Shown here piece by piece: positions 25,761 through 61,600 of a DNA stretch of 64,000 bases; the first letter of the stretch is position 1, and every line of letters begins with the position of its first letter. The DNA comes from Paramacrobiotus metropolitanus (Eukaryota > Tardigrada > Eutardigrada > Parachela > Macrobiotidae), in the NCBI RefSeq assembly GCF_019649055.1, contig NW_026570250.1:186001-250000 (forward strand). Direction: 5' to 3'. Made by a program: the position numbers and the translations under genes. The notes beneath the pieces were generated by a model that saw only the letters and a program-made list of their open reading frames with translations, was not told the origin of the DNA and did no database searches.

Positions 25761-25802
25761 AGATGTTAACTAAATAGTTGATCGAAATCATTTGAATAAA
25801 CC

Positions 25803-25853: not shown

Positions 25854-25869
25854 CTTGTATATATATATA

Positions 25870-26495
25870 TAGGCACCCCTTTACCGCCGTTACACCCCGT
25901 TTGGCTATAGGCACTCCTTGGACAATAATTAACTACTGCTTCCCGTGTTGTTAAAACGTAGAGGCATCCTTTTTTAAAAGGAAATAAATGTAGTTCGTTG
26001 CTACAGTATATTAATATATCCGGTTATATTTTCGCGATCTTAGAATTTGTATTGTAAGACCGGCTTTTGTATTGTAGATTGTAGAATTCATATGTGAATT
26101 ATGCAGCAAAAAAGTGTCGTATGCAGTAACTAATATTGTTGTCTGACAGTTCCTGATGTACGTATTAATACATCGGAAGATAATGCGCAGTCAGTTGCAA
26201 ATACATAATATGTGTATAACTTATTTACTTACCGACTCGTTATAGTATCCTAACACTCTGAAAAAGTGAACTTCGTCATGAGGTTAAGGACACGGGTAGA
26301 TCAGAAAAAACTTGTTATAATAATCTTCCTTAACATATAATTAGTCGTTCTCGTAGAATAAAATTGCTTTTTTAAGAGATAGTGAGCTGCGCGCATAAAA
26401 CGGATTCAATAATTAATTATAAAAAAAACTGAAAAGGGGTGACTATCATAAAACGGGGTGCGACGGGGGTGTCTGCCTGTCTACTTACAGTAAAC
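25870..26495. mobile_element. Possible non-autonomous element with GC-rich inverted ends
   Basis: The left segment 25,870-25,918 (GGCACCCC, ACACCCCGTTTGGCTATAGG) resembles the reverse complement of 26,436-26,487 (GGCAGACACCCC, GCACCCCGTTTTATGATAG). The imperfect inverted repeats enclose about 600 AT-rich bases without a gene. Target duplications are not clear. Confidence 0.35.
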
Positions 26496-41652: not shown

Positions 41653-41661
41653 GTTGATTTG
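41653..41661. repeat. 9-bp target site duplication GTTGATTTG, left of element A
   Basis: Direct copy 1 of three (others at 55349-55357 and 58318-58326). A 9-bp duplication is the hallmark length for Mutator-like elements. Confidence 0.9.
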
Positions 41662-41804
41662 ACCTAAACATCACGGCTGATCTAATCCTCCTGGAGGGAT
41701 TGGATGGGTGCTATTCACGCACTTCGGTTCATTTTATGGACTTCAGCGTCGTGCTCAGTGGCAGCGTTTACACATCCAATCTGCCACAAAATCCATTGGA
41801 AGTT
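41662..41804 (+). repeat. Left terminal inverted repeat of element A
   Basis: 141 of 143 bases match the right end. Internal blocks CTGATCTAATCCTCCTGGAG, TTCGGTTCATTTTA and CCATTGGAA are also conserved in the ends of element B, whereas the outer 15 bases are not. The shared blocks are candidate transposase binding sites. Confidence 0.95.
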
Positions 41805-42049
41805 TCAACTAAACGCTTGTGAGCGTACGGAACACATTGCAATAAAACTGTAAAAAATAAAAAAGCGAATGTGGCATCTAATTCATTAATAATTGCGTGG
41901 TGATTGATGATTGCCATAATAGTCAATAATTAATTGTTTGACTTCTTTGCGGTTCTATCTCAATCTTGATATTTTGAACGAATGCTTTCTTGCAATGCCA
42001 GTTGCATATTTTATTGGTGGAATACTGTCGCTGTCGGCTTCCCTTCACT

Positions 42050-45000
42050 ATGTCCTCTAAAGATCTACGCTGCGATCATTGTACTGGAGAAAAATCCTAT
42101 TCGACGAAGTCAAACTTAAACCGTCACGTTAAAAAGCACCACCCAAATTTTTCTGTTCCAAAAATTGGTAGGTTTATTAAAAAATGATTGCAAGATGAAC
42201 TCGTAAAGATTTAGATGTTTGTTTCGTAGCGGGAAAATGTCAAGAGCCGGAATGCCAATTTGTCTTTTATCACCTTGAATCTTTGATTTCACATCTCTGT
42301 GCTTTCCATAATCGGGTTGAATTCAGCGTGAAGGAGAAAACATTTCAAAATTTCGATGAATTTGTGTCTTGGAAAGCTGATTTCGAAGATTTGACTGCCA
42401 GCCAATTCAACCATGCGAATGGAGAGAAAAAAACTGGAGCTGAAAAATCTTTCAGAATGTATTCTTGCTTTCGAAATTTCAAATCTACCGGAGACGGGAG
42501 TTCGAAAAAAGAACGAAAATTTAAATGTACCGCTTTTATTAAGGTATGTCATCAATCATTGTCAGCTAGAGCCTAGATCATTCACCAATTTAGCGTCTAC
42601 AGATAGAACTGAGTGCAATTCTGGGGGTAGTAACAAAGGTCATGCAGAGCAAAGTGCAGAGCATAGTGCAGAGAAGAGTGTAGAGAAGACAAGCGTTTAA
42701 TTAGTGCTAACGTTAGTGCACAACTGCATCTAAAGCGAAGCGGAAAATACGTTTCTGTTATTGATTAAAATTTGACTTATATTTACTGCTAGGTAAAGCG
42801 AAGCACTACTTGGACTTTATGCTTTATACAAATAACCATAATACTATGTGTGGAAAACTGCTATTTGGAAAATTATCGCAACTGCAAAAGGCCGGGTAAA
42901 CGAGTATGTATTTGTACGAACATACTCAAAAGACTTTTGCTACTAGTATGTACTTAGTACTTACAGTACTTATTGTGCTGTTTGTGCCATGCAGGTACAG
43001 TACTAGTATACTTATTAGTAACAACAGCGTATTCACACATAAGGAGAAAGCTCCGTAGTCCGTAAAGTTTTACCACCAAAAGTCGCTGCACACCACATTT
43101 GACCGCCACCAGGCTATGTACACCACTGTCTGCACTACGTTTTGTCTCGGGCCATTTCTGCGACACCATCATGTACATTTTATAAATACCGGCAATATCA
43201 GAACACCACTTTATGTTAATCTGTGGTTTCGAAGTCATACAGTAGTGGGTAGCATAACGATCTACGGTAGATACTTTTATGTACGTATATTGTGACTTGC
43301 CGGAAAGCGGATTACGGCTAGCTGTAAGCCAGTGTAAGGCTGTCAAATCAAAGAAACGGAATCGAGTGTGCCCTTTCGCTTTAGCGTTTTCGCACAAGCG
43401 CTCAATGGAATGAACCAACAAAAGAGCTTATTTTTTAGAAAAACAATGAAAGAGTGGGTAATAACATCATTCTAAGCTAAACGTGTGCAAAAACTCAAAC
43501 ACCAACCTGGCCGGGCGGTCAAGCAAGAAAACCGACAAAATGGCTAGCTATAACGGAGCGGAGGCTACGAGTGTATCAAATTTTTCTTTGCTTTCTACTT
43601 ACAGTTTACTGTTATTTTAAAAACCTTGCTTACTGTTACTGTTAGTAAACACCTCAAACGTTGCTGCTTACCGATTACCGAAGCTTAATATTAGGCTACT
43701 GGGAACTGAGAAAAGACTCGGTACATAGAACCAAATTCATTTACATGCGCAAAAACACGTGCCTATAAGGGTACTTGTATCCATAAATTAAAACACGAAC
43801 TAATAAGTTGATGACGCAGGGTAATACGGATAACTCGGGATATGAACACTGTGTAATAGGAAATACAGTATTTGAAGCGAATAGCTAATATATACATAAT
43901 TCTAATTAATCAACATTCCACGCCCGGATTGTCAGGGCGCATAGCACTAACTTTAACAGTAACATGGCGACAAATTTATTTTTTAGGTTAAAACCACCAG
44001 TAAAAGTGTGGTAGCGTCTTACTGTGAGCAACATTATGGCCACGATGTCAACGCTGACCTTCATTCTCAAAAGATTCCCGAAAAACTTCGGATCGATATC
44101 GGGAGTAGGCTGGCTTTGAGCGCAGACCCACGCGTAATTGTGCGAGATGTGCGAAAAGCCGCATGGGAAAGGCTCCAGAAAGGTTTGTAAAAACCACAGA
44201 AATTTTTTTACGGTGGTCATTTTTACTTGAGTGCAATATTATACGAACCTTGCAGAGGGTGTTCATTCGCGTGCACTATACATCACATTGCAAGATGTAT
44301 ACAACATTCGTCGCGAATTAAAGCTGCACTGGGAGCCACGCAAAGCCTGTGAATACCAGTCCATGGGACTTGAAGCTGCGTACGAAAACACGGTTCCATT
44401 TCAGGAAAGGAATTTGTTATACTTAAAAAAACATCTCGCAAAAATGTATGCAATTCCCGGAATTACCCAAATCCTATTTTATTGCCGTTCTTCAGACGCC
44501 TTTTCAAAGGGCACAGTTTAAAAGACTAAACCGCAAAAGTCTGTGTATTGATGCAACACATGGTGTTTGTGGCCAGCGAGGATTTAAACTTATAACGCTA
44601 ATGGGTATCGATGCTGCAGAACGCGGATTTCCAGTTGCACATTGTATTGCAAATCACGAAGACGAACTAACAGTTTCGGCTTTTTTCAAAATACTGAAAG
44701 AGCAAATCCTAAATTTCCATGCGGAGTGGTTTTTATCTGATGATGCTCCTGCGTTTTTTAACGCTTACCAGCAAGTGATTGGATGCAATGCCAAAAAAAT
44801 ACTATGTACATGGCATGTACGGAAAAATGTGAATCAATGGCTTGACAGACACGCGCGTTCGTTTACCGATGCGAAAAAGCGATTCGGCAATATTATGTAT
44901 GCTCGCGGAATATCTGAAGCGGAAACCGAAAGCGCTGAGCTGATTAGATTGGTCAGCACGGACAAGAAGGTGTATTCTTATTTATCACAGTATCTGGAAC

Positions 45001-46919
45001 GCATAAGCGAGTGGTCACTGCCGTACCGCATCGGCGCTGCCTTTTCGACCAGTGCGTTCATAGAAAGCTTCCACAGGTTAGTACTTAATTTTATAGTACT
45101 TCTTAAAAATGCCAAAGCCGTTTTTCTGGCGCGTGGTCAGTTTGTTACGCACCCGAGAATCTGTCGTTGAAATTTGCTATCGCTTCTGTACAGTAAAACC
45201 TGCCTTTACATACACCTAGTAAACAAATACCACACCCGAAAAGTTAATACGCTGAAATTTTAACCGGCGCGTCCCGGCAAAGGGGGCATCCTGCATAGTG
45301 AATACACCTTAAAATTAGGCTTACGTACACTTTTATTTTTGTCCGGATGCAAAATATCCATGTAAAAGAACCTGTCGGCTACGTACAGTCTAGCCGAAAC
45401 AGACAAAGTTACAACGATACGTCCGCGATTAATGCGTTGTACCTTGTAAGTTATAAGTGCCAGAATTCAGCTACGTTAAGCAGATAAAAAAGTAAGTACA
45501 CTTGTTGGCAGTCTTTGAGTGAATTACCGTAAATGAATCAACCATCATGGGCAAACGAAAGCGTAATGATTTGACTTTGGAATACGAGATTAAAAATATT
45601 GATGCGGTCGTTCACGATAAGCTTAGTTCACGATAAGTTTAGCAATATTTTAACATAATGCACATTTTGCTACATCATCTGGGGTGGGAGAGGCGAAAAT
45701 GTTAAAATTTCAGGAACTTCTATTACTGTTCCCAGAATTAAGACCGTATGAGAACGGGACCGATACCCATGCGGGGCCCGGCCCACTGTTCGCTGTAGTG
45801 CGTGTTTACCAGAACTGTTAAATGTAAAGAACCGCGCGAAGGTCACGCTGTCCGCTTATAACTCAATTGCGGGAACCGTACGTAAACACTGGCGCAATAT
45901 AGAGGGGTTACCGGTATAGACTTTGCGCCTTGATTGCCGGCATTGTTTTGCGCAAGGAATGCCTGGCAAATAGCACTATTCATCATTCTAAATATTTAAT
46001 TAGTCAGGCGTTTCTTTCTGCAGTCTAGGTAGGTGTAATGCAGTTTGTGTTTTATTTCAGAGTTCTTAAGCGCGTACATCTCAATGCAAAAACCGGCCTT
46101 CGAATTGATGAGCTGTACGGCGGCCTACTGGACTTCATCGAGCAGCTTGAAATTAAGCTTTTCACTGATACCGTGACTGCCAGTCCATCGTACCGACAGC
46201 AGCAAATTAAGCGAAATCACCGGGAGGCCGTAAAATCAATTTCAAAGTATTCGTTTGAAAAAGAGGCAGAATCTCGATTTGTTTGCAAGAACTTGATTAC
46301 TCTTAATGAACATGTCATTATCCTTGCTGAGTGCGCTACAAGAAACTGCGAAACCGTTTGCACCGGATGCAATGTTGCGATTTGTATTCACGGTTTTCTT
46401 TGCGACTGTCCTTCTGCAGTAGGAGGGTTTCGGGCTTGTAATCACGTCCATTTGCTCTGTCTATCCGAAAAAGCACAACTGCAGTCGTCTTCTCTTCCTA
46501 AAGATTCCCAACAAACAGTATGAACAACATGTACTTCTAATTTATTACAATTACTAAATTAATTTTTTGATCTGCAGGCTGACTTCTACGGTTTCGAAAA
46601 TGTCGCCCAGGCGAGGTCAGACTTTCTAGTGTCCACGCTACAGAGCGCTTCCATTGTGCCACAACCGTCTGGGTCGAAATATACAATGCAGTTGCAGACA
46701 CTCCGCGATTTTTTAAATGACGCGACGGACAATAAAAGTCCAGAAAACGTGGAGCTGGTGGCGAAGTGTGCTGCGTTAATTCAGAAACACCGGACGAAAG
46801 CTGATTTGTTAAGTCAGATTTCTACAACCGGAATTCGAGAAGCAAAAGCAAGAAATTCAAGACTAAAACGTCAGCCACGCAGATTTAAGAAGTCCAAGAA
46901 AAAGACTAAACAAGTTTAA
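42050..46919 (+). CDS. MULE transposase (C2H2 finger, DDE domain, SWIM finger), frame probably broken
   Basis: Cuts and inserts the element. Exons supported by phase: 42050-42167, 42230-42543, 43987-44182, 44256-about 44470, about 44480-45076, 46061-46517, 46578-46919. The N-terminus has a C2H2 finger (CDHC...HVKKHH); exon 2 has a second Cys/His cluster and a region like Phantom-type MULE fingers, ending KCTAFIK. The catalytic core shows CIDATHG (first Asp at about 44,550), LSDDAPAFF (second Asp at about 44,739), a CTWHVRKN zinc/helix motif and FIESFHR (Glu at about 45,063), so all three acidic residues are present. The SWIM finger CDC...CNHVH follows at about 46,400. The C-terminus is lysine-rich. 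Between YAIPGITQIL and FIAVLQTPFQ the frame shifts and some 15-20 codons typical of relatives seem missing, so this copy may be inactive unless a small intron is misread. Confidence 0.85.
42596..42725 (+). repeat. 12-bp-period tract in the transposase intron
   Basis: AGT recurs every 12 bases (GCAGAGCAAAGT, GCAGAGCATAGT, GCAGAGAAGAGT) and then TGCTAACGTTAGTGC. It lies within intron 2 of the transposase gene and is the most degenerate member of the family described at 54,643. Confidence 0.5.
45189..45310 (+). mobile_element. Degenerate pogo-type MITE copy inside a transposase intron
   Basis: TACAGTAAAACCTGCC, TTACATACACC and TTTTAACCGGCGCGTCCC appear in the same order as in the reverse complement of the intact MITE at 25,580-25,760. 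The far end is missing or mutated. Its position within the long intron 45,077-46,060 means it inserted into the MULE, or an ancestor of it, before the latest transposition or soon after. Confidence 0.65.
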
Positions 46920-48640
46920 CGTTCCAAAAGCGAATAACGTTGGATAACCTTTGTAGTTGTACTAACTCTGTTACTCTGGTTTGGACTATAATGTAACCTC
47001 TGCATTGTGGTAGCTTTATCACTCGGGTTGATACTATGATGTAGACTTCCGTTCGATATACTAATTTTGCTGCTCAGATTTTATTTAGATTTAGCTTGTA
47101 CTGGTAACGTATACATCTAAACCATTGAGCAAAACTGTATTATTCCGTAAACAAGGGTATCTGCGTCAAAGTGTATCAGTATTTGATAACCAAAATTATC
47201 CAGTGTGACCACAACCGACGTCGGTCGGCTTTAACACGCTGAACACGGATGCTACCCGGCTGCTGAACAGCTGGAAATCATTACGGTACTTAGAAGCGCC
47301 GGTGCACTGTTTTGCAAATTGGTTTAATTCTCTTGATGGCCAGCAACCACCTGGAAACTGTTTTTGTGCTGGACGCCGATTATAATATTAATAGGAGTAT
47401 ACTGTAACGAGTATATCCATATACAGTATAAGTATGCACAGTACGAGTATATATAACCTCGAATATATATAATGTTGATACGATACGTTACAGTAATAAT
47501 AATTATATCCTAGCTTAAATATACTGTACCTGACTTGAGATTTTGTGAACCAACGCATTCTGTCACAAAAGCGCTTTTAGAGGCAAGTACCGGCAAGATG
47601 CAACATTGAACATGGTGTTATGATAAATACAAATAGCTGGCTTGTGCATACAGCAAATGTTTCAGTTTATCAAAGCGTTATTTAGGCCGGTTGCCTGGGC
47701 ATAATGCCATTGTATGTACTGTTATTTAGTACTCAAGTAAGTACTCAAGTATTTAGTACTCAAGTAAGAAACTCGCCTCCGCTGTTCTTGTGGTCCACGG
47801 CCACTTCATTTGATTTCGAATGACTATCTAAATTCGAACCTGAATCGGTACATCACAATTGCGCAAAAACACTGAGACTTCTGCTTTAAATCTTTCTGTT
47901 TCAAGCATTGGGATTTTTTAATGGTAGCTCGGTCACCTGCTCACTTACCGGGCTAACTTAATAGCTCTGTGCATTGGACAGTATTGGTAACTCGGCTCAG
48001 TCACTCGTTCACCCAACGAGCCCTGTGCATTTGACAGTAGTAGTAGCTCGGACAATAAAAAACAATAGTAGTGTATCTAATTTAGTGTGAAACGTCATTT
48101 TAATTTACGGGTTAGGTGTTGTACTGTTAGTTAAAAAATGGCTGCAGTTATGTAAATGTAGTATGAAAGGGCATTTTAATTTGTTTTAGTAGAGTTTTGG
48201 AAGTTTTGGAATATGGGCTTTCAGATTGTGGAAACTGTTTTTGCTATTTCTGTTCGACAAAGCTGGGTTAGCTATCCCTTTTTAACTTTTTTGTGGTAAT
48301 AAAGATCTACCTATAGAATCTAATTATTTTAGTACGATACTAGTACTATCCTGCGTTTGGTACATCTTGTACATCTGTAATTACTGCGATAATGTAATCA
48401 TTACAGGTGCAGAATATTAAAATTATTAAAATTAAATAAAATTAATTTTAATAATATTAAAATTATTAAACTTATGCTCGTAATACAGTTGACTTGCAGC
48501 TGCCATGGCGCAATACAAAAGCTGTCGTTACCAAACAATTTTTTTTGTTGCATTCATGCGCAGGAATTTACGTGACAAGCTTGTATGGGATTTACAACAC
48601 GTGATACAAGTACACTCAAAGCTAACAATAAAACGGTACT
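46920..48640. other. Non-coding stretch inside element A
   Basis: No exon seen. It contains two copies of a 33-base repeat (CTGTGCATTGGACAGTA-type, at about 47,967-48,052) and the dispersed-repeat end at 47,766-47,806 that matches 25,803-25,853 in reverse orientation. Confidence 0.45.
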
Positions 48641-49606
48641 TTAATAGCGTACTATAATTTTCTTCACATTATGCCCAGTCAAACTTTCAAACGCAGCAGT
48701 TCCTTTTTCGGACAACTTAATGCCGGACCTTTTTTGTCCCTTAGCACTTTTGTTTCCGCAGTTGAAACCCCCGCTTACGTTGAACCGATTCGACAATCGC
48801 CGGCCAAGGCTTTTTTGAAAGTTCGGCATTGGGACATAATTTTTGCTTGCGCAAAATCTGCAATATTATACAGATCTTTTATTAATGCAACGAGGCTTTG
48901 GTGCCGTTGTACCTCTCAAAGAACTGCCAAATCAGGTCACTTTTGAGTTGTGCTGTCTCGCTAGGCAAGAAATTATCGCTAATCCTGAAAAAATTAGATT
49001 TTTATCATAGCCACAGAGTATCTTGTAAATACTTTACAAATTCAAAGTTGTAGCTACAATACTAGTAAAATAAGTATAAGCAGTCTCCTGTTGCAATGTT
49101 CGCAAATTTATCTACCAGCTGTCCACTTCATCTAGGGGAATAATCCCCTTGTTTCGTCCGGTTGTACTGCCTGACACTTCAGAAATTACATCCTGAAACG
49201 AAAGTAATCATGTATGAACTCAAGCAATTAAATAACAAAATAAGCTTTAGTTATAATAAAACGATCAGTTTTTGTAAAGCAAAGCTGATAAATTAGCTTC
49301 ACTGGTCCTAAATAATAAAACCAGCACAAACTCGGTCTAATGTAAGACAGAGCAGATACCGCAGCTGTCGCCCTATAAATTCCATCCTAAATATCAAGAT
49401 AATAAAATCTCAGTTACTTATCTTAGTTATGATAACAATTTTAGTTTTTGTGGATACGGCTTTGTTTCTATTTGTTTCACCTGTTCAGAAATTGCCGAAA
49501 CTTCGTCGCCGCGGAATGAATAATTGTGCGACAGATCCGGAGTGCTTACTTCAGCGGCCGGCGATATTGTGGCAATAGATAAGGAATCAGTTGCACTGAC
49601 ATTCAT
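48641..49606 (-). CDS. Transposon cargo gene: 163-residue protein with RFX-like winged-helix region
   Basis: Four exons, 49481-49606, 49116-49192, 48913-48984 and 48641-48857, join with matching phases (0, 2, 2) and no internal stop, giving 163 residues from the ATG at 49606. The N-terminal 60 residues are Ser/Thr-rich and acidic. From about residue 65 the order is WISDNFLPSETAQL, LIWQFFERFC, VPMPNFQKSLGRRLSNRF and KRSGIKLSE. That is reminiscent of the RFX-type DNA-binding winged helix (W..N, YxxxC, FGKxIRxxF, YxGI), also found in some viral and phage primase C-termini. This resemblance is by eye and moderate. The intact splicing inside a young element suggests it is, or recently was, functional. 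A role in recognising element ends would be a natural guess, unproven. Confidence 0.5.
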
Positions 49607-49719
49607 AAAAGCTAAAGACACACCAAAAAACGAGATCGAATTTTATTATCTTTATTGTGAGATCATTATTTGTAGCATAGAAAAATTAAGTATAGGAACT
49701 GCTATAGGTGACACTACAC

Positions 49720-49880
49720 AACCTTTCATTACTTTTTACTCCGTGCACAACCCTCTGCAGTACTTTCTTGCCGTGCATAACCGGTACCTTTCACTCGAAC
49801 TTTTTGTGCACGACCTTTTACTCCGTACACAAACATTCGGCACTATCTTTATGTGCGTTGCACTACCTTTTAATCTTTAA
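49720..49880 (+). repeat. Degenerate tandem repeat, period about 35-45
   Basis: Imperfect copies of ACCTTTTACTCCGTGCACAA recur several times. The copies are too irregular for an exact period by eye. Non-coding; inside element A. Confidence 0.4.
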
Positions 49881-50560
49881 ATTTTTTCACAACAAAGTTT
49901 TTTTGGAACTGCCATTTTTTCATTAAGAGCTGTTTTTTCATTAACAGCAAGATTCTTTCGCTTACTCGCAAAGAACACGTTTCGGGCACTCAATAACTTT
50001 CAAAAATGCCCATACGAAGAGATCACTTCTGGAGGTTTTTAAAGGGGCCGTTATAAACCCTTTAAAAATTCCCGCTACCCTCCCTCTTTAAGCTCCACCC
50101 CGCTGCTTACTGACACGTTAAAAGATTCCCACTCCATTTTTGTTGAATCCGCAATGAAAAGTGGCACAAGAAAAGTCTTTAGAGAATATCAAAACAACTT
50201 CCAGAAATAAATCTAAATTTATTTTATGCAACTGCCCACACTTGGCGTGACCACCCTGTATTATATTCCAAACAGTTTGCTGAGATAACGATGTCCGTTC
50301 TTCATTTTTGTTTCTGTCCTTCATTTTTGTTCGCACAGGGATTTTGATTTTTGACTAAAACTTGCTGCTTGTGTGCATTGCAAGCCACGCTACTGCTGAT
50401 CTCAGCGCTTACAGCTAGCTGATATTTGAGAATTCGGCTAATGCTAAGCCAGTGCTTTAGTTGTAAGACAAAGTTGTACAACAAATCGTAGTCTTAAAAC
50501 GGGAACTACAGTTTTCAAGATGTTGTAGTAATATTTCCACGCCCTGTGTTTCCGGCACCT

Positions 50561-50731
50561 TTATCGCTCGCAAAATTCTTTCAAAGCTCGCTTCCACAGT
50601 ATTTCGTGCTTGTGAACGGCTTGCGTCAAATGCATACAGATTTTCTGGTCCGCATTACGACGGGGTTTCTTGGACGTGAACGCTGACGGGCGCACACTTT
50701 TGGCCATTTTGTTAATCGGCTTTACCGTTTC
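50561..50731 (-). CDS. Small open frame in element A, weakly MADF-like
   Basis: The frame starting MAKSVRPSAFTSKKPRR continues with ICMHLTQAVHKHEILWKRAL and stops after EFCER, 49 residues at most. The hydrophobic spacing and HEILW are reminiscent of the first helices of MADF/Myb-like domains (LI..V..HP.LW), and the basic N-terminus could bind DNA. No following exon was joined with confidence. It may be a fragment or a chance frame. Confidence 0.2.
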   Translation of the reverse strand, partial: ETVKPINKMAKSVRPSAFTSKKPRRNADQKICMHLTQAVHKHEILWKRALKEFCER

Positions 50732-51127
50732 TGCAGAGCTGCACACATATACGTACACATATGGTAATTCTGACAAAACTGCCCATTGGCCAGTTTGCCA
50801 CGATTGGTTTAGAAAGGAAGAAAAGCCCCTCCCTCCTACAACATCAATCTACAAAAAATTTTTTCTGCAACTTTCGCGTCCATACTTTCGAGAATTACAA
50901 CAAAAATTGCTACAACAAAAGCGGCTCGCGTACATACTTTTTCTACGATTGTTGCAAGATCTCTATTGTTTTCCGAATTACAACTGAGCTAGCATTACTA
51001 TGAACTAGCATTACTTTTTCTATGATTGTTGTAAGATTTCTAGTGTACTCACAACTGAAATATACGTAGTATAACACCTGTAATCTGCCGCAAAAATAAA
51101 AGTGTTATGGAAAGTGATAAGCGTAGT

Positions 51128-51195
51128 GTATACACAGGTGGTGACCTTAATGCAGACCTTAGTGCAGCTGATAGTAATGGAGTGTACAGTTAACC
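51128..51195 (+). repeat. 12-bp-period tract, short
   Basis: GACCTTAATGCA then GACCTTAGTGCA then GCTGATAGTAAT, read in frame as DLNA DLSA ADSN. Confidence 0.45.
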
Positions 51196-51460
51196 CGAGT
51201 ACAAATCGATTGCTATGCTTTCTACCTGCATCGATTGTATATTTTTTTATTTTTATAGATAACGTTTTATTTTATTTTACCTGGAGTCTGGTTGAGCTCG
51301 GACGCCAGAACTGATTGGGCTTGAGTTTCCCCTTGTACTTGCACAGTGTCAACCACTACATAAAAGAGTGGTACATTAGTTATCTATACAAAAAAAGTGC
51401 ATAACAACCAACAAAGTCATGTACAAAGTATTGCGGATAAGTCCTGCAAAGTCTGTCAAG

Positions 51461-51956
51461 TTAAAAAATGTACCGCATTGTGGAGTCGGAGGCACGACTG
51501 GAGGAGCGACAGTATTCCCGTTTTTTTTTAACGCAGCCAGTTTCACGCATGCCTGCAGCTGCGTGTTGGACAGCTCTCTCATGGACTGATCGCCCACTGT
51601 GAATGGCTCTAGTCCTATCAAGCGTTGCAACATATTTTTCATTGCCTAGCGTTGAAAACTATTCAGCTACATTATTTGACTGCTTTGCAGCTTACCGCCT
51701 TTAGGAACCCAACCGAATTGCCCCGGTTTATCGGTTCCAAAAAATTGCACGTAAACGCCTCGGTTTCTGGCATTCTCCGGTGGCGTTTCAACACACGCCG
51801 GCCAGCGGTTATAACCTGCGTTAATTTTTATAGCTAGTTAATAGTAATACTGACAGCTGAAAACCATGGGGAACCTTCCAGTGCACGCTTATCCGTAGCC
51901 ATACCTTTGATCTTTGCCCAAACGATTTGTCCTACTGGAAAGGGCAACGCTGACAT
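51461..51956 (-). CDS. Transposon cargo gene: 118-residue PWWP-domain protein
   Basis: Three exons, 51905-51956, 51696-51815 and 51461-51645, join in phase 1 twice with canonical GT-AG borders and no stop, giving 118 residues. The PWWP domain fills the first two thirds: FPVGQIVWAKIKGYNRWPA provides the beta-barrel start and WP core, then CVETPPENARNRGVYVQFFG, TDKPGQFGWVPKGG, and helices around RSVHERAVQHAAAGM. PWWP domains read methylated H3K36 in nucleosomes and bind DNA; NPAC/GLYR1 and LEDGF are familiar examples. Here nothing else is attached except a short basic, Ser/Arg-rich tail. The gene lies wholly inside element A, with introns, so it was captured from a host or has long been carried by the family. 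It could steer insertion toward active chromatin, which is my inference. Confidence 0.75.
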
Positions 51957-52422
51957 TTTTGCAGTTAATGCCGAAATTACGTTGCTCAAAATGAGAAAAC
52001 AGAGCAATGTTTCGTGAATTATCAAAAGTTAAAACATGGAGGCGTCAATTCTAAGGATAGTAATAAACACGTCAGAACACCATAACTGCCGAAATTCAGC
52101 AAGAGTAAATAATAACAATGGGAAGAATACTGGATAGCCGTGACTGTCTTGTGTATCTATGTACTTATGCCAGCCACCCCAAGATAGGTAGCAGCTTGGT
52201 ATCCCGACAACGTAAACGAGCGCCCTATACAGCTTACACTAACTACTCGAATGGTCGTTCAAGCAAAACAATATGATTAGTGAATGAGGGATGGTCGTTC
52301 AAATAAAACACCCAAAATATTAGTTTCCTCAAAACCGATTTTCTTTCGTTTTTTCTATATTTAATTAAGCAAGATTTGCCCTTTACAGAGCACTTGAAAT
52401 TTTTAAAGAAGAACTGCATATT

Positions 52423-52562
52423 ACTGACCATGAGTGCATATCTGACCATGAGTACTGACCCGAGTGCATATCTTAAGACTGACCGGAGTGGATACTGTAT
52501 TGTTGCTCTTAGTTTTAACTCAAGTTTTAACCTTAGTGCTCATCTTAGTTTTATCGAGAGCG
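52423..52562 (+). repeat. 12-bp-period tract (Asn/Asp-x-Ser-x coding register)
   Basis: In one frame it reads as four-residue units such as DPSA, DRSG, ALSF, NSSF, NLSA, HLSF. The AGT/TCA serine codon sits at a fixed place in each 12 bases. Confidence 0.6.
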
Positions 52563-52837
52563 GGACCTTAACAGAAACGAACTGCTAGCGCTTAAAGCCA
52601 GAGGGAGAAACAAAGCCAGATACTTCAAAAATATTTTGGAAAAGAGTTCCTCCTCCCCCCCCTGCTGTTCAGTCTTAGATTTTCGCATACGAAAAAATTT
52701 ACGAAGACTGGAAGCAATCTAAGTTTGAACTGGTCGAGGATTTGCGTAGATCGATCATCAAGGAACATGGTCCATAATTTAATTACAAAGAAATCTGGGA
52801 CATCAAGATTTTAAAAAACAATAACATACTAAAGAAA

Positions 52838-52892
52838 CCTGTAAACGCCATTAGATTCAGCATGATCAGAAACTGTGTCACATGTATTTTAT
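52838..52892 (+). repeat. Dispersed repeat fragment, copy 2
   Basis: Pairs with 18,361-18,415. The shared frame reads NAIRFSM and NCVTCI. The upstream 150 bases also keep a partly open frame (ELVEDLRRSIIKEHG), as in a decayed coding repeat. Confidence 0.5.
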
Positions 52893-53400
52893 TTCTTTAA
52901 AAAAATTATTCTAACCCGTCCCTCCGATGCCGGTTCCGTCAAAACTGGCTCCTGTAAAACTTTTATGTAAGTTTGAAAATAATAGCAGTTCCAGTTGCTT
53001 AGAACGCTTAATAAAGTATTAAGTGTGTAGTGTGTACTGTATAATAAGTTTAGTGTACTATAATTATAATATACAGCAATAAACTAAATTCAGAACCATG
53101 TTTGAATTTTGCCAGGCTTCGAAGTTGTGGTTTGTGATTGCTATCAAAATACAGACTGTATATCCCATTGAATTGAAAACCTTCACAAAAGTTAAGTGTC
53201 CGGAGTATTCGATCTTTTGTTTCTTTTTCCCGCCGCGGTCAGTAGAATGCCGCATTTCTTTATAGTAACGAAAAAAACAAATAATAGTAGCATGAGGTAC
53301 AAAAATATACAGTACATAGTTGAGTATCCGTAGTATAAATATAAAAATGAGGAAGTCCGAATTTCTGTTTCTATGATATCCTTTAAAACTACCCAATTTT

Positions 53401-53562
53401 TTAAAAGGGTGTGGCTATTCCTACCACCTCGCACAACCTTTGGCTATTCTCACGATTTTTAACCACCTTTTGGCTATTCGTACCACCTTTTAAGAATTAA
53501 CTCTAACACCACCTTTTGACTATTACCACCGCCTCTGCACACCTCTTTTGGCTATTCTCACC
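53401..53562. repeat. Tandem CCACCTTTTGGCTATTC repeats, left block
   Basis: About five imperfect copies of a motif ending TTTTGGCTATTC lie at irregular 28-45-base intervals. The inverse motif GAATAGCCAAAAGGTGG is repeated at 54,390-54,520, so the two blocks flank the FAR1/Ulp1 remnant as inverted repeats. Confidence 0.65.
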
Positions 53563-53616
53563 TCTTTATTGCATTTTTTACACCGTAAGTTTTATAAAAG
53601 ACTTCATGACAAAAGG

Positions 53617-54210
53617 TCAAAGCTTTGCCGTTAGGGGCGAATTTTTTTTACGGTTGGGGCTGCCGCCGGCCGGAAAAGTATCTAGGCGCATCTTATCCGT
53701 GCTGCAGCTGTTTGCCAAACGTTCTCGCATCTTCTTATTGCTGAGTTTGGCTTTTCCCGGTAGACGCTGGTAAATGATTTCAACTGCAAAAGCAATGGCG
53801 AAAACGCCACAGTCGTATCCATTTTTTTGCTGCTGTACCCGAGAAAGCAGAATGTCGATCGACTGGCCTTCTTGAAAGTTTAGTAGCTTTTTATTCACTC
53901 GCACTCGCACTTTTTTTAATTCACTCGCGATTCTGTCAGTTCACGGACTTCTACAACTTTTTTCGGATCCAACCGTCGATTTTCCAGCACATTTTGCAAA
54001 CCATCCTTGGTAAGAGGATGGTTATGCCGCATACGTATTTTGCTTAGTAATGATGAGGCGGTGTTCTTTCAGCCGTGCCGGCCGCTGCGGTTAGAGTGGC
54101 ATTGCATTCCGCTCGCCGGGTGTGCTGGAATGGTCTTTTCCCAGGTTTTTTAGCGTCATGCACTTTGTGGCGGATGCAGTCATATTTAACTGACTTGTAT
54201 CTCATGATTT
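53617..54210 (-). pseudogene. Decayed FAR1-like / Ulp1 (C48) peptidase remnant
   Basis: Read on the minus strand, 54,210 to about 54,050 starts MRYKSVKYDC and includes PFQHTRRAECNATLTAA, the FAR1-like pattern of SWIM/MULE-type proteins (QHTR.xECxA). After frame changes it continues as LKEHRLIITK and then HNHPLTKDGLQNVLENRRL (the HNHP segment). Next, 53,910-53,617 encodes QKNGYDCGVFAIAFAVEI, the cysteine-box core of Ulp1-type SUMO peptidases found in many transposons, ending with FPAGG. Stops and at least two frameshifts separate the parts and the catalytic His/Asp portion is not seen, so it is not functional. It is a remnant of a second transposon gene, or of another element nested in A. Confidence 0.65.
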
Positions 54211-54389
54211 TGCACTTGCTAGTACTTGTTTATACCGGCAAGTAATATCGGGTTTACATTTCCCGGCTTCTAAAGGTCGTGCGTTTTAACGCATAACGTT
54301 ATACAAATATGATTTTACAATCAGTTTATAAAAGAAAGATCTTCGTAGCAACTTAAAGTATTTATAAACATAATAATATTATTAAAATA

Positions 54390-54520
54390 TGTAAGGAGGT
54401 GGAAATAGTCGAAAGGACATGTAAAAAGGTGGTGACAATAGCCAAACGTGGTGGCAAAAATATTTTTAAAAAGGGGTGCGAATAGCCAAAAGGTGGTGAA
54501 AGGTCGTGAGACCTTTTTAA
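54390..54520. repeat. Tandem GAATAGCCAAAAGGTGG repeats, right block
   Basis: Inverse of the 53,401-53,562 block, with copies at about 54,396, 54,428, 54,450 and 54,480. Together the two blocks bracket about 0.8 kb. Confidence 0.65.
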
Positions 54521-54642
54521 AAATCAATCAGAAAAATTAAACTTTTTTGAATCGTTGTCCTAGAATTAACTATCTAACTAAGTAAGGCTTTAGCCTAACA
54601 ATGGTAAGCCCGTTTCGTCTTGCACTTAATTAGACCAGAGCC

Positions 54643-54740
54643 CTAACCCGAGTGCTAACGTTAGTTCTAACCAAAGTAAAAACCCGAATGCTGACCTTAG
54701 TTTTCACCATAGTATTAACCCGAATGCTCATGCTAGTGTT
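54643..54740 (+). repeat. 12-bp-period tract, best example
   Basis: Eight consecutive 12-base units read as NPSA NVSS NQSK NPNA DLSF HHSI NPNA HASV. A serine or asparagine codon (AGT/AAT) stands at the third place and usually AAC, GAC or CAC at the first. The bases drift while the register holds. Related tracts occur at 42,596, 51,128, 52,423, 55,995, 56,821 and 57,575, on either strand, always inside the two MULEs. Confidence 0.7.
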
Positions 54741-55205
54741 GTCGGAAGGATATCCTTTAGTGGAAGTGGTAATATAGATATTTTAGAATTCTTTGTAAGC
54801 GTGTTTTGGTAGGAGGAAAACGGTCCTTGAATTTTTTATTTTAAACAAAAAACAGTTTTGTAATGCTTCCATTGTCTGAAAGTGTAACATACGGAAAGTT
54901 ATCTGAAAAAAGATTCATTTGTGATTTGGCCAAATAAAACTTAGCACGAATGAGAGAAATTCTTCTATTCTTCTTCATCTACGAGGCATATGTCGATATC
55001 TGGTACTTTTTACAATTCACAAAATGTTCCACACGCTAGTCAGATTAGAACGATAATAACAGAAAATCGGGTATCTGTTATCTGGGTCGATACGTTTTGC
55101 GCTTTGCTTTTTAAGCCCTCCTTTTGACAGAAACTAAAATTTCTAATTTCAAATAATATTAATTATTTTCGTGCTTAGACTTGCGCTTAGGCACTGAAAA
55201 ACAAC

Positions 55206-55348
55206 AACTTCCAATGGATTTTGTAGCAGATTGGATGTGTAAACGCTGCCACTGAGCTCGACGCTGAAGTCCATAAAATGAACCGAAGTGCGTGAATAGC
55301 ACCCATCCAATCCCTCCAGGAGGATTAGATCAGCCGTGATGTTTAGGT
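55206..55348 (-). repeat. Right terminal inverted repeat of element A
   Basis: Reverse complement of 41662-41804 with two substitutions. It ends at GTTTAGGT, directly against the shared target duplication. Confidence 0.95.
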
Positions 55349-55357
55349 GTTGATTTG
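55349..55357. repeat. 9-bp target duplication shared by elements A and B
   Basis: GTTGATTTG, the only bases between the two elements. It serves as the right duplication of A and the left duplication of B. Confidence 0.9.
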
Positions 55358-55994
55358 ACGCGTGCCTGTGCTCTGATCCAATCCTGCTGGAGGGTTGGGA
55401 TCTGAGTTATTCACTTAATTCGGTTCATTTTACGCACTTTGCGTCTCGCGCTCAGTAGCAGTGTTTACAGCTGTACACGTCTCGACATCCATTGGAATTT
55501 GTGGTTTCTTGGTGTGTGTTGCATTCGGTTTTCGCAATCAGGTAATCAATGTTTTAAAAAAGTCATCCAAGTTATCACAATGTTCTTTTTTTGATAAAAT
55601 TTATGTTTACATCCACTGATATCCGAAAGGTTCCAATTTACCACGGGAAAACTAAAATATAATATGAAATACTGGCACCTGCAGCAATATCGTAAAAACA
55701 AGTTCCTTATGAAAATTCAGCGACATGGAAACAGTAGCTTGTGGATCTTGAGCCACAAGGTTTCGTAGTTTTTGTATTTCTTTGCTGAAAACTACATAAG
55801 GAATATTGTTGGACATATTGCTGGAAAGGCTCATTATGATGCTCCCCAGTCCTACAACAGCGGTAGTGAAATCAAGATGATAAAGCACACCTCATTCCAT
55901 TTGTAATATGCTTCGGCTTGCCAGGACACGTTTGCAAATAGCTAAAATTTTAAGCATAAAACACTGTTAAAAAACATATTTTTTGTCAGCAGAA

Positions 55995-56100
55995 ACTTTT
56001 GACAGAACTAAGATGAACACTCGGGTTAAGACTACGCTTAAAACTAAGATCAGTAATTCTGATAATACTCTGATAAAACTAATATTTATACTCAGGTTTT
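55995..56100 (-). repeat. 12-bp-period tract in element B, first minus-strand tract
   Basis: CACTCGGGTTAAGACTACGC and neighbours, the reverse complement of the AACCCGAGT units. More degenerate than the 54,643 tract. Confidence 0.5.
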
Positions 56101-56796
56101 CAAACCTCAGATAGCTTAGTGTTTGCGAACTCTGGTTATTTCTCCCAAAAACTCAAAAATTCCTCCGTCCACAAAATGTTTTAAACCTAATTGAATTTAT
56201 TATTATGTTCACCAGTGAAGTTTATTCAGCCAGAAATACACTATAACAGAAGTTAGGCACTATAACAGAACTTCAAATTTAAAAATTCAAAGAAAATTTA
56301 ATGGTATTATACATTTTATTTTGTAATATCTGTTTTTTGGCAAACCAAAGGAATACTAGAAACTGAAAATGACGAAATGACGTAATTGCAAAAAAATATA
56401 CGACATTACTAATGACGAGGATTTAAAGCCTGAGTTTTGAATTGTTTGCACATTTAATTTTGCGCCGTCATTTTTCACAACAATTTTTCATCCTGCACGT
56501 TTGCTAAATCTGTTGTCTTGAAACAGTAAATATGCGTTGACCAAACAGTTATATTTCAATTGAGAAAGATTATTAGAGAAAAAAAAGCAGAAAATAAAAA
56601 GTTATCTTAGCATACCATTTTTCTGGTTAAATATTTCGAAAAAAATGTATATTTTTTTGTTTTTAGCTGATGTTGGAAGTAAAAGAGGCTAGCGCTACGC
56701 TACTATATACTTCCACTGCCGAGTAGCAGAGCGTTTCAAATGTAATGGAAATTGTTGCAAAATTGTTTTAGAACGCATTATAGGTATTATACGCAA

Positions 56797-57060
56797 TTAT
56801 TCCGTTGGTCTGAAACTTTTGCCAACACTACTATGAGCACTCGGGTTAAGACTATGCTTTGAACTAGTATCACCACTCAAGTTTATACGTTGATCAAAAC
56901 TAGCATTAGTACTCGGGTTAACACTCTCGTTAAAGCTAACACGAACATCTTTATTTGTACACCAAATATCATTCAATAATTCAGGAATCGTTAATGTTTC
57001 GCTACACATAATTATTTTTGCAAAATGCTTATGAAAAACAATTTTTCGCGGACGCTTTGG
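56797..57060 (-). CDS. Open frame in element B with Asn-x-Ser-x repeat tail
   Basis: From the ATG at 57060 the frame reads MPKRPRKIVFHKHF, then IPELLNDIWC, and then ten units such as NPST, NASF, NLSG, NPSA and HSSV before a stop at 56797. That gives about 87 residues: a basic N-terminus with a low-complexity repeat tail. No family recognised. The frame surviving across the period-12 repeat hints at coding, but one copy cannot prove it. Confidence 0.3.
   Translation of the reverse strand, partial: PKRPRKIVFHKHFAKIIMCSETLTIPELLNDIWCTNKDVRVSFNESVNPSTNASFDQRINLSGDTSSKHSLNPSAHSSVGKSFRPTE
56821..56950 (-). repeat. 12-bp-period tract in element B, second minus-strand tract
   Basis: About ten units in the same register as the open frame above. 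Confidence 0.6.
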
Positions 57061-57335
57061 CATGAGAAAAATTTGGTACAAAAACATTTTGCTGAATCGC
57101 TACACAGACATTCGGCATGCTACTGTCTTTTGTTTACGCTCTAATCTATAATCTCATTAGAATGTTTTCCTAAGTTTTTTATATTTTACTTGTTTTTGTT
57201 AGCTTTTCTTGTGTTTTCTGAATATATTTTCGTGGTGTTCATAAGATTATTAGCTTTTTTGGCTGGCTTTAGTTTTTTTTTAATCCAGTATGTTTTTAAC
57301 TTTTCAAGCTTTGTTAAAATTGTTTTTAAGCCAAA

Positions 57336-57608
57336 TTGTGCTATGCTAAAATTGGTATATGCGGAAGAGTTTTATGCCCTTATGTTCTTATTCCGAAATG
57401 TACGTATATCATGCGCCTTCCCTGCGTAGATGTTACTAAAAGCATTTTCAACGAAAAGGTTGATTTCAGTATTCTTAATGAAAAAAAAACGAAAGTTTAT
57501 TTGAGTTATAGTTCCGAAGAAGATTTGCAGAAAAAGATCGAGAGTCAGTTTGTCGAAAGGTTTTTGAGTCTGTTGATAAACCAGAGTTTTAACCAGAGTA
57601 GTTTATAA
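57336..57608 (+). CDS. Open frame in element B, plus strand, unidentified
   Basis: At most 90 residues. The middle reads VDFSILNEKKTKVYLSYS then EEDLQKKIESQF, a charged, probably helical stretch, and the end runs into NQSF NQSS repeat units before the stop. The period-12 pattern continues past the stop to about 57,660. No known domain; it may be a decayed mate of the minus-strand frame. Confidence 0.25.
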   Translation: MCYAKIGICGRVLCPYVLIPKCTYIMRLPCVDVTKSIFNEKVDFSILNEKKTKVYLSYSSEEDLQKKIESQFVERFLSLLINQSFNQSSL

Positions 57609-57660
57609 CCGAGTATAAACCTTAGTAATCTTGTTAGTCCAGATCAAAGTCTTAACCTGC
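57575..57660 (+). repeat. 12-bp-period tract in element B, plus-strand tract
   Basis: NQSF NQSS, a stop, then INLS and PDQS type units, the same register as the other tracts. Confidence 0.5.
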
Positions 57661-58317
57661 ACACATTAGTATCGTCAAAAGTTTTACTTGACTGGAGGTT
57701 GTAAGTTAGATTTGGGTTTTCAAGCTCATTTTGGAATTTCTGACTTTTATTTTGTGCGGGCGCGATTTGCAATGTCCGTTTAATTGGTTTGGAAAAGAAC
57801 CGTCAGGGATAAATTTTGATTGCGTAGCATAACTTTTATAAATACTGTGCGTTAATGTATAAATATAATGGTTGCCTTGTATAAATTGTTTACTCGTGAA
57901 ATATTATAGCACAGTAATGGTAAAATAAACATTCAATAAACATTTATATGAAGTAGTGCAACAGTGTATGCAAATTTGTGGATCAGTGTATAAGTTTCGC
58001 TGTACACATGAAGGTTCCTCACACTTAAATAAGAACTAATCTGAAAATGCGCATTTACAATTATAATTCAAAAATTTGATTAAGCAGTCGGCGATGATAT
58101 TATTTGTTGAGATCCGAAATAAAAAACTTTGATTTTACCTTGTTGCATCACTAACATAGACGCGGCACAGCTACAATTTCCAATGGATTTCATGCGAGAG
58201 TGGAATTGTAATTGCTGTACTGAGCACGAGACGTTAAGTGCACAGAATGAACCGAATTAGGTGAATAACTCAGATCCCAACCCTCCAGCAGGATTGGATC
58301 AGAGCACAGACACGCGT

Positions 58318-58326
58318 GTTGATTTG
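58318..58326. repeat. 9-bp target duplication, right of element B
   Basis: Third copy of GTTGATTTG. Removing both elements restores ...GAGACGGTTGATTTGGGCC... Confidence 0.9.
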
Positions 58327-58600
58327 GGCCAATGAGTCATGCGCATTTATTCATTGGAGCCTCCTCCTTCGCACCAGTCAATGAAGTGCAAGTCTGCCAG
58401 AATCTTGAGAGACTCTTGCGATGCCTGATGCCAGCGATGGTGTGTGACTTGGTGAAACTGAATTCTGTGTTTATGGTTTCCTGACTGATTTATGGCTGGG
58501 AATGATGGTTTTATAATTTTATCTCAACAAAATCGACGTTGTGCTCAACAATAAGGATATTTCCATCAGCGTTTAGGATTTGTGTCGGTGGATCAAAGGA
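58327..58600 (+). promoter_or_regulatory. Putative 5-prime regulatory region of CLASP
   Basis: Directly right of the MULE pair lie GGCCAATGAGTCATG (a CCAAT motif overlapping the AP-1 consensus TGAGTCA) and, within 30 bases, the inverse ATTGG. No TATA box is seen. These motifs are short and could be chance. The position before the first recognised CLASP exon makes them worth noting. Confidence 0.35.
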
Positions 58601-61600
58601 AATGGCGAAACCTGATGCCAAACCAAAAGGTAAGAAAGATCGCAGTGTACGTGGGCACATTATGTTGGGCAATAAAATGTTTTCTTTTTTGTTGAATGCT
58701 TGTTCTCAACGTCGCAGTTTTTATCCATTTCTTCGGAATCAACGGTTGTTGTATCGTTCAATGGCTGGGGTATTCCAGCTTTGAAGGCAATAACATGTTT
58801 GCAGTTGTTATTTAGAGTGGACCAACCTGTCCCGCAGGTTGAATGACACTAATATAAAAATTGGCATGAATTTGTTTTGGTTTAGCGCTATGCCTTTAAG
58901 AGGTTAATGAGTCATCTGGTTAAGTCCCGTATTTGTTTTTTTGTTTCATAGTTTAAATAATTAATAAGCAATCAGTAAGTGCTAAGATGCTATTTAATTT
59001 TCATTCGATGCAAAAGCAGCTAAACCACGGTTACAACTTACAAGTTGAAACTACACTACGGGTTGTGCCGTACGACGTGAATTGTTGAAAATCGGTATAC
59101 GTATAGATATGTTGTGTTTGATATCAGATTCATCTCCCAGCTTGCATTTTGTATTTAAACCTTTATAGTTTATCATTATTTATTGTGCAGGGTTTCCACA
59201 GGAAGCGGTGGACGAAAGTGATTTTATAAAGGTAAATAACTGCCAGAAAATTTATTTATAATGTAGATGGGTGGAATTATCTTAGCCGTTTCAAATCTGT
59301 ATACCGGTATTACTTATGTACTATCTTAACTTATTATACAATACAACTTTAGGTGCATATCTGGAAAATTGTTAAACAGCATTTGTTTGTTTATTTACGT
59401 TTCTTAAGCATTGGATGTCCGTTATTTAGCAATGCGTTTTGTCTTTAAAAGGCAAATGCATTTTACAAAATTTTAACGTAGAGATTGTGTGATTGAAATT
59501 TGGTCATAGCCGAAAACGGAAGGAATAGTCGGTTTTGCTCAACAAAAATACATTCATAGCGAAAAAATATGTTGTATTTTCAGAGTGCGGTTAATAAAAG
59601 TGCCAGTCGTGCTCAGAGCGTTCCCCCAAAGCCCCGAAATGCATTCGGTTTGCCCGCACCGAAATCATCTAGCAGCAACGCCCCTAGTAAATAGTTTTCC
59701 TTGTGTTGACTTACATGCATCGCTTTGTTTGTTTATGCAATTTGTTGCTGTATTTATAGAAGAAGCTGGGGCTGTTGATGAAGAGCAGTTTCGCGAAGCT
59801 TTCACAGAGTGTCCACGGTTGTCCATCTCGTCCGGTGCTGAAGTGGAGTCGGAACTTACAAAAATTAAAGATAGTCTTTCTAATCCTAAAGAAGATTGGG
59901 AGAAAAGGGTCGATCAGGTGAGCCGGTAATGTGCTACCAACCGTTTTGGTGTAACTTTGATGTTGCTATGCCTTGATGGCGAAAGTCTGTCTCTGTTAGA
60001 AGGTTAATTTTTTGAGACTGTCGTTTTGTTTTTGGTTCACATGTTTTTTTTTAGAATACGTCGAGATTAAGTAAAATTTTAATGCATTTGACCACTATTT
60101 TCCTTTTCAAAGTGGCAAAGCAAACTTACATTTAGTTTTTATTTAGCTTAAGCGTTTACGCGGTGTTGTTATCGCTGGAGCGGCCGATTACAAAGAATAC
60201 GCAGCTACAATGAAATTTGTGGATTTAGCCCTGCAAGTTGCCGTCAAAGATCTTCGCTCGCAGGTTGTCCGCGAAGCTTGTGTAACCCTCTCGTAAGTTC
60301 GCCAGACATTCCCAGACAGTGGCGACGCGCTGCTTATTTATTATTGTTCAGTGATTAATGTTATCGTTCGTTTGTGCTGTGTAGGTTTATGGCTGAAAAG
60401 CTGGGAATGCGCTTTGAGCGTACTGCCGAATTAACGCTTCCATCATTAGTCTTACTTATTCCAAATTCAGCGAAAGTTATGTCAACGTCTGGAATTATTG
60501 GAATCCGCTTCATTTTGGGCGTATGTTTATTTTTAACAGTGTACATATGTGAAACTGATCCTTCTAAATTAATTGCACCACATTTTTATAGAATGTGCAT
60601 TCATCTAAACTGGTCCCCATAATTACCAACGAATTTATGACGTCGAAGTCGAAAGACATTAGAAGGTACGGTATGAACATGAGTTATTAACCAAATGGAC
60701 AGTTGTTGTCGTGGGCGTGCATGGATCACTGCACTCGTATTCAGCAGTTTACAGATATATCGTCATATACGAGTATTTTCTAATATCTTTGCAGATATTG
60801 CTGCGAGTTTATTGGTCTTATATTGGCAAAATTTCCTAAACAAGCCTTGGAGAAGCACGTTACTCTTTTACAAGAGGCCATTAAGAAAGGGATGGCTGAC
60901 GCGGATTCGGAAGCGCGAGCGCTAGCCCGCCAGTACGATAATGAACCGTTAGCTCGAAGTAAATGTACTAGCAGCTTTGTAAATTTTCATTTGAATTAGG
61001 GCCTTTTTTGGCTTCAAAAAGCACTTCCGAGCGCAGGCGGATAATTTATTTAAAGATCTGGATCCCATGAAGCAGCGTTATCTTGAGGAAGGAATGTCGC
61101 GGAGTACGAGTCAGAATTCATTGAAATCTGGCGCTGCTCTTTCACTTGCACCCAGCAGCAAGATACCAATTACCGGCAACCTAGGGTAGGTGAACAATGC
61201 GGAAACGTCACAGGGTGTTTGTGTACAGACTGCAGTAAACAGTCAAATATATGCACATTCCGGTGATGCACATGTTGATTTATGGCCCTAGCTTCGCATC
61301 CAATTATGGTGATCACGCTGTGCGTGAGAAAGCTCATGGTTGCTCAGATGATGCGTTAAGTTCAGTGATTAAGTTATGGTGCCATGTTTTCATTACTTCC
61401 TCAAGGCGAGTTACTTATCTCCTTTGATAACTTTTGCGATTGGTTTTGATGAAAAATTTCGTTAAAATTTGAAGACATTTTACTAGTTCTAGTAGTTAAG
61501 TACGAGAATGTTTTAAGTGGAGCCAGTTTGCAGTTATTTGTCATGTTCTTATATCGGTTTTCTAACTGCTCCTTTTTTGCAGCGTGGAATGTGCTTTGCG

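Follow-up and report, generated by a model that had tools for sequence, protein, structure and literature searches.

Two transposons, termed here A and B, lie back to back in a stretch of 64,000 nucleotides from the tardigrade Paramacrobiotus metropolitanus (the window), and both are bounded by the same 9-bp sequence. This arrangement raises the question of how a single target of nine bases came to be used twice, in which order the two elements arrived and what guided them to the site. Very probably, most insertions of the A and B families are placed a constant 6 bp from an AP-1/bZIP-type heptamer, and the locus records the serial reuse of one such site, with A inserting first.

Two elements at one target

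Three exact copies of GTTGATTTG are present at the locus, and the ends of both elements abut them with zero spare bases (Table 1). Read from left to right, the layout is 9-mer, A, 9-mer, B, 9-mer, GGCCAA and TGAGTCA. The three identical 9-mers with no spare base described in the original prediction were re-verified by coordinates, and its reading that two MULE-type elements had inserted one after the other at the same 9-bp target is judged right. The chance expectation for GTTGATTTG is 0.94 occurrences per window, and a fourth copy is found on the minus strand at 30411-30419, apart from both elements. The boundaries of A and B are judged from sequence comparison to be real transposon boundaries, since other copies of both multi-copy families are likewise flanked by duplications of 9 or 10 bp.

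The reading of the locus rests on one assembly. A misassembly at the junction between A and B is conceivable; such an error would have had to fuse two elements at a 9-mer that is also equal to both outer flanks. No empty allele was found in the assembly: GTTGATTTGGGCC occurs four times, and the three occurrences outside the window have flanks other than those of the locus. The two elements are inserted upstream of a CLASP-like gene, recognized by a profile match below cut-off; the gene setting was examined at this locus only.

Table 1. Coordinates of the features at the double-insertion locus (positions within the window)
Feature	Position	Strand	Remarks
Left outer copy of the duplicated 9-bp target GTTGATTTG	41653..41661	+	
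Element A, MULE, 13,687 bp	41662..55348	+	TIRs 41662-41804 and 55206-55348
Probable first transposase exon of A, C2H2-type zinc finger	42050..42167	+	limits by eye
Probable second transposase exon of A	42232..42544	+	protein P0002 match at 42283-42555
Transposase ORF of A with MULE catalytic domain	44448..45170	+	PF10551
Probable C-terminal transposase exon of A	46038..46523	+	SWIM-like Cys/His run by eye only
Middle copy of GTTGATTTG, boundary common to A and B	55349..55357	+	
Element B, non-autonomous MULE-type, 2,960 bp, young family	55358..58317	+	terminal repeats 84% alike
Outer right copy of GTTGATTTG, adjoins the motif	58318..58326	+	
6-bp spacer GGCCAA, duplication to motif	58327..58332	.	
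TGAGTCA, AP-1/bZIP-type heptamer, inferred targeting site, intact after both insertions	58333..58339	.	

The elements

Element A is a MULE: the catalytic domain, long terminal inverted repeats (TIRs) and a 9-bp duplication are all present. Its TIRs are identical at 141 of 143 positions, so complete inverted ends, as had been claimed for each element, are found here and also, in more divergent form, in B. The transposase gene is spread over several exons. The MULE domain PF10551 covers residues 32-127 of the catalytic ORF (about 44541-44828) and scores 31.6 bits against a cut-off of 27.6. The first exon matches zf-C2H2_4 with an E value of 1.1e-5, its 26.2 bits falling just under the curated cut-off of 27, and inspection of exon 2 by eye shows another pattern of Cys2-His2 type. 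Neither exon 2 nor the C-terminal exon matches a Pfam family significantly (best E 0.04 and 0.06, respectively). A transposase relative is annotated in P. metropolitanus as LOC129602188, whose protein is matched at 92-98% by contig C355. Among the 40 of 184 candidates that were scored, the interior of A between 47000 and 49000 recurs at 88-95% in an A copy on contig 38, and pieces of the interior recur at 79-86% inside the spans of three elements of B-prime, a B-like group with ends ACGTGAG. Because it recurs in other elements of these groups, the 47000-49000 region is largely element DNA.

Element B has terminal repeats of about 147 bp, in which 124 of 147 positions match, and its left end matches that of A at 98 of 130 positions. 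It contains no ORF of at least 100 aa and is therefore classed as non-autonomous; by its ends only, it is filed as a putative MULE-type element. Among the copies scored, 11 B elements, that of the window included, have an identical left end, and in nine, again including the window copy, the right end matches the left at the same 84% (152 bits). The 84% identity between the B ends is thus a trait of the family and not a sign of age. Over 2,957 sites the window copy carries five private changes and eight shared non-consensus changes, and it is young. The diverged ends of B had been taken to mean that B is the older element; this argument fails because the divergence is family-wide.

Copies across the assembly

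The 169.8-Mb assembly was searched for further copies with the ends of A and of B. Each search gave 42 matches, and the resulting lists are lower bounds because 40 of 78 and 40 of 76 candidates, respectively, were scored. The list was completed with a pattern of the shared end core, allowing up to two mismatches, which occurs at 83 places; the same pattern read backwards, used as a control, occurs at one. A decayed end on contig 24 was excluded. The collection comprises at least 43 A/B-type elements: 19 of A, 16 of B, five of B-prime and three of a C group, the last with ends ACGAGAT.

A clear duplication of 9 or 10 bp, whose two copies differ at one position at most, flanks 32 of the 40 two-ended elements. 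Left out were three single-ended elements (A19, B1 and C3) and eight two-ended ones in which no duplication reached k-1 matches (A16, A17, B10, B15, Bp1, Bp2, Bp3 and C2). As A1 shares its site with B7, A1 was omitted from the set of independent sites (n=31), in which the duplication measures 9 bp in 19 cases and 10 bp in 12. The right boundary of A6 was shifted one base outward by hand because its last bases are mutated.

A heptamer at a fixed distance

The table of duplications reveals a target rule. In 23 of 32 insertions the heptamer TGASTCA, with at most one mismatch, is found on one side at a distance of exactly 6 bp from the duplication, and 11 of these are exact; with the shared site counted once the figure is 23 of 31, and by the author's reading it would be 22 of 31 (22 of 30 leaving out A1) had the A6 boundary not been moved. 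At every other offset between 0 and 44 the count is 0-2. The motif is present at 11 of 15 A sites, 11 of 13 B sites, one of two B-prime sites and at the single C-group site not at all (0/1). The local background, drawn from the outer flanking sequence of these loci and from the window, comprised 118,446 positions, among which there were 13 exact and 222 near matches. Measured against it, the counts have binomial tails of 4e-49 for at most one mismatch and 7e-33 for exact matches. The motif was first spotted by eye and then counted on the same rows, a circularity against which a motif-blind search guards: when every observed 7-mer was scored at offsets 0-39, TGAGTCA at offset 6 came top, in 20 of 62 flank stretches, and the runners-up, with 18 and 15, were the same motif shifted by one.

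Further detail comes from 26 oriented sites. These were picked for at most two mismatches, which biases the heptamer information upward: six positions hold 1.25-1.58 bits and the centre 0.29. The base counts are T25 G24 A23 on the left arm, C9/G12/A2/T3 at the centre and T24 C23 A24 on the right arm. A T directly follows the heptamer in 18 of the 26, and the extended consensus is roughly ATGASTCAT. The flanks of the oriented sites all differ, so the enrichment does not derive from one duplicated locus. In the same sites no position of the 9-bp duplication itself exceeds 0.31 bits. Of the three options put forward for this locus, that of a real target preference is borne out, with the signal 6 bp outside the duplication; the preference for sites resembling GTTGATTTG that had been envisaged is not.

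The rule has exceptions: at eight of the 31 sites the sequence at offset 6 departs from the heptamer by at least two bases. The number is exactly two at three of them (B14, B16 and C1), and five have no recognizable motif (A2, A13, A14, A15 and Bp5). Among the eight two-ended elements dropped for want of a duplication, Bp1 differs from the motif by two bases at offset 6 on both sides and the others by at least three. In the B family the motif lies beyond the left end at nine sites and beyond the right end at four, and no meaning is drawn from this distribution.

The rule holds for the A and B families; beyond them it is seen at one B-prime site. PF10551 has 39 matches in the assembly. For the transposases on contigs 63 and 355, no inverted repeats were found between the flanks compared; elements with terminal repeats were recognized on contigs 6 and 34. 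The contig 34 element, a more distant one, has no motif, and its duplication matches at 9 of 10 positions by eye (GAGCCTGACA/GAGCCAGACA), a script for exact 8-10-mer duplications giving none there. At the contig 6 element there is no clear duplication, exact matches occurring only away from the repeat ends.

Order of insertion

The side on which the motif lies bears directly on the order of events in the window. An exact TGAGTCA is situated 6 bp beyond B, whereas A shows seven mismatches at offset 6 on both sides. As the motif adjoins B and not A, A most likely inserted first, and B then entered between A and the motif. Sequence changes were also compared: there are 2 in 286 positions in the ends of A and 5 private ones in 2,957 sites in B. 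This weak comparison agrees in direction with A being first and is not significant (Fisher p 0.12).

The opposite history had been proposed originally, with B inserting first and A following into the left copy of the duplication, drawn by the B end or by GTTGATTTG. Three identical 9-mers, taken alone, permit either order. Under motif guidance, however, the second element would be placed next to the motif, and it is B that is found there; A would have to have chosen a target without a motif on either side. The 9-mer, moreover, carries little preference, and the diverged ends of B, being common to its family, do not speak for greater age. Insertion of B before A is accordingly very improbable.

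A joint move is less probable still and can be regarded as extremely unlikely. In that scenario A and B travelled as a composite, bounded by the left end of A and the right end of B. The core CTGATCYAATCC is present at position 16 in the ends of both elements, and a single transposase might therefore pair an A end with a B end. A composite, however, would duplicate a new 9-mer at its outer borders, with an unrelated 9-mer still between the two elements, whereas the three observed here are the same. Judged by coordinates, no other facing pair in the list of 83 end cores has the spacing of the junction.

The sequence of events favoured here, with A ahead of B, can be put in mechanistic terms. 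The cut nearer to TGASTCA would fall 6 bp away from it, and the other would lie a further 9 bp out, or in some cases 10. As the heptamer is palindromic, insertion would be possible on both of its flanks. Neither heptamer nor spacer is included in the duplication, so that the target would be rebuilt: after each insertion, one 9-bp copy would be just as far from the heptamer as before, and the site could be used again. A would have landed first, 6 bp from TGAGTCA, and B later at the same place, parting A from the motif and giving the arrangement 9bp-A-9bp-B-9bp-6bp-TGAGTCA.

How rare is a repeat hit

With 32 insertions and an estimated ~18,600 exact sites, each used from either side, 0.013 pairs of insertions at one site are expected. 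Compared with random insertion, motif guidance would thus greatly raise the probability of such a coincidence, yet without making it common. Since so few pairs are expected even under the motif rule, some motifs are likely to be favoured, or else the case is luck noticed after the fact.

The junctions between elements were tabulated across the assembly. At three places, in the window, on contig 10 and on contig 3, the end of one element lies, by coordinates, within about 125 bp of the start of another. Among these three close pairs in the list of 83 cores, a shared duplication is confined to the window. A further hint comes from contig 10, where elements A6 and A7 occupy the outer sides of a motif pair, TGACGCA/TGACTCA, whose members are 6 bp apart, and each motif lies 6 bp from the duplication of its own element.

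Reading the motif

Since the offset is exact to the base, a rigid complex of transposase and motif reader would be needed. A protein bound to the heptamer may position the transposase. TGASTCA is the classic AP-1/GCN4-type site, and the heptamer is predicted to be of AP-1/bZIP type from its palindromic form with a central C or G. That a host bZIP protein of AP-1/CNC-like type docks the transposase is given about an even chance and is slightly favoured over a reading by zinc fingers. The fuller scenario, in which such docking sets the position of the cut to the base pair and lets a cut-and-paste MULE repeatedly colonize stress-responsive regulatory sites without damaging them, stacking element upon element, is tentative and falls a little below even.

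A competing explanation produces the same target rule without any host protein: the transposase itself would read TGASTCA through N-terminal zinc fingers. The C2H2-type finger in exon 1 of A, although just under the cut-off, and the finger-like pattern seen by eye in exon 2 are in keeping with this possibility, as is the base-fixed spacing, which is what one rigid complex would be expected to give. Against it, the heptamer, its central preference for C or G and its flanking A/T are those of host AP-1/GCN4-type factors, and by eye the element ends lack TGASTCA at the matching inner offset. Direct reading is a serious candidate whose probability lies somewhat under one half.

The third explanation dispenses with motif guidance and holds that the elements land in open chromatin, in promoters rich in AP-1 sites. 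Maize Mu insertions co-localize with open-chromatin marks, according to the accessible part of the report (PMC2774946), and the window site is upstream of the CLASP-like gene matched below cut-off. Accessibility, however, cannot fix a distance to one base, and 23 insertions have the motif at offset 6 against two at most at any of the other 44 offsets. Open chromatin is refuted as a full explanation by the fixed offset and is highly improbable as the sole cause; it may explain why some motifs are hit twice.

Comparison with known systems

The following comparison draws on those parts of the cited papers that were accessible. Muta1, an active MULE of Aedes aegypti, has 145-bp TIRs and generates 8/9-bp duplications, and an N-terminal zinc finger is present in most MULE transposases (PMC5225508). 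It is, like A, an animal MULE; 60 insertions in yeast and 171 mosquito sites revealed little or no sequence preference (PMC5225508), in contrast with the TGASTCA at a fixed 6-bp offset in A and B. The maize Mutator/MuDR elements share with A and B the 9-bp duplications and long TIRs, in maize of about 215 bp, and insert frequently near transcription starts (PMC2774946). Their target is a weak symmetric pattern at the edges of the duplication, SW::SWNNNNNWS::WS, and, unlike in A and B, an external heptamer was not seen in the accessible text (PMC2774946). Tm1, a Mutator/Foldback element of root-knot nematodes, is another animal Mutator-type transposon with duplications of 8-10 bp, mostly 9 as in A and B; it differs in having composite, repeat-rich TIRs and, as described there, no clear consensus in the duplication (PMC3169594). 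As far as these partial sources go, the MULEs compared (Muta1, maize Mu and Tm1) are nearly sequence-blind in their choice of target. Strict targeting is known from Dada, whose DDE transposase is distantly similar to MuDR and which makes 6-7 bp duplications inside snRNA and tRNA genes (PMC3706591). Dada is thus a target-specific DNA transposon, as A and B appear to be, but it does not aim at a transcription-factor site.

In a 2026 survey devoted to the MULEs of arthropods, the main text gave no hit for insertion preference (PMC13359780). Among the matches listed in the open-access literature, titles and abstract openings disclosed no MULE or other DNA transposon guided by AP-1/bZIP sites. A itself is classed as a MULE and B as a non-autonomous element of MULE type.

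The nearest parallel comes from another class of element. In the manner of a target-guided transposon such as Tf1 of fission yeast, A and B mostly insert at a position fixed relative to a factor-type motif (offset 6 in 23 of 32). Atf1 is a bZIP protein. Integration of Tf1 into promoters is steered by bound Atf1 and Sap1, and deletion of Atf1 changes target choice only modestly, as reported in the accessible portions of the two studies (PMC7175516, PMC5371812). Tf1 is an LTR retrotransposon with an integrase, whereas A and B are MULE-type DNA transposons; its integrase acting with Atf1 and Sap1 is a precedent, in kind, for docking on a host factor. With most of their insertions a fixed 6 bp from an AP-1-type heptamer, the A and B families indicate that the integration of a DNA transposon can be tied to a transcription-factor site to the exact base, while the site is left unharmed and the element's own target is restored. 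From the side on which the motif lies, the order of stacked insertions could be read directly, and the two families lend themselves to experiments on factor-guided transposition in animals.

Features of the window

The window harbours a 6.4-kb tandem array in which a 51-bp unit is repeated approximately 127 times, with 92% matches, and no stop-to-stop frame of at least 500 amino acids was found to overlap window positions 18000–26000 that encompass it. Element A, the transposase-bearing MULE, contains an inverted repeat with arms of 50 nt (86%) separated by 964 nt, perhaps a small nested element. On the 3′ side of the non-autonomous element B, one segment matches CLASP_N at an E-value of 1.4e-4 and a score of 21.9 bits, which falls short of the curated threshold of 27. 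This segment and the neighbouring open reading frames look like a gene for CLASP, a microtubule-binding protein: on that reading, A and B would lie upstream of a CLASP-like gene.

Related elements elsewhere in the assembly

On contig 10, two A elements flank on its outer sides the arrangement TGACGCA-6 bp-TGACTCA, and 6 bp lie between the target duplication of each element and its motif. A C-group element on contig 87 is characterized by a 10-bp duplication. Its right flank resembles by eye the start of a tRNA gene, and on the opposite side TGACGCT is located 6 bp beyond the duplication. Members of another small group, B-prime, are contained in perfect palindromes on contig 3: one has 552-bp arms (100% identity) that extend beyond the element ends, and is immediately adjoined by a second element with perfect arms of 408 bp. 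These palindromes arose by foldback very recently, or else they are an artefact of the assembly.

Coordinates of the features described
Feature	Location	Positions
51-bp tandem array	window	18898–25338
Inverted repeat in A	window	53448–54511
CLASP_N match	window	60784–60996
Paired A elements	contig 10	1748024–1753424
C-group element	contig 87	116405–120015
B-prime palindromes	contig 3	2116196–2119259

More distant MULEs on contigs 34 and 6 carry GACGTCA in all four printed ends, ∼38 bp from the element end. In three of the four it takes the form TGACGTCA, the CRE-type bZIP site. A bZIP site possibly resides within the element itself.
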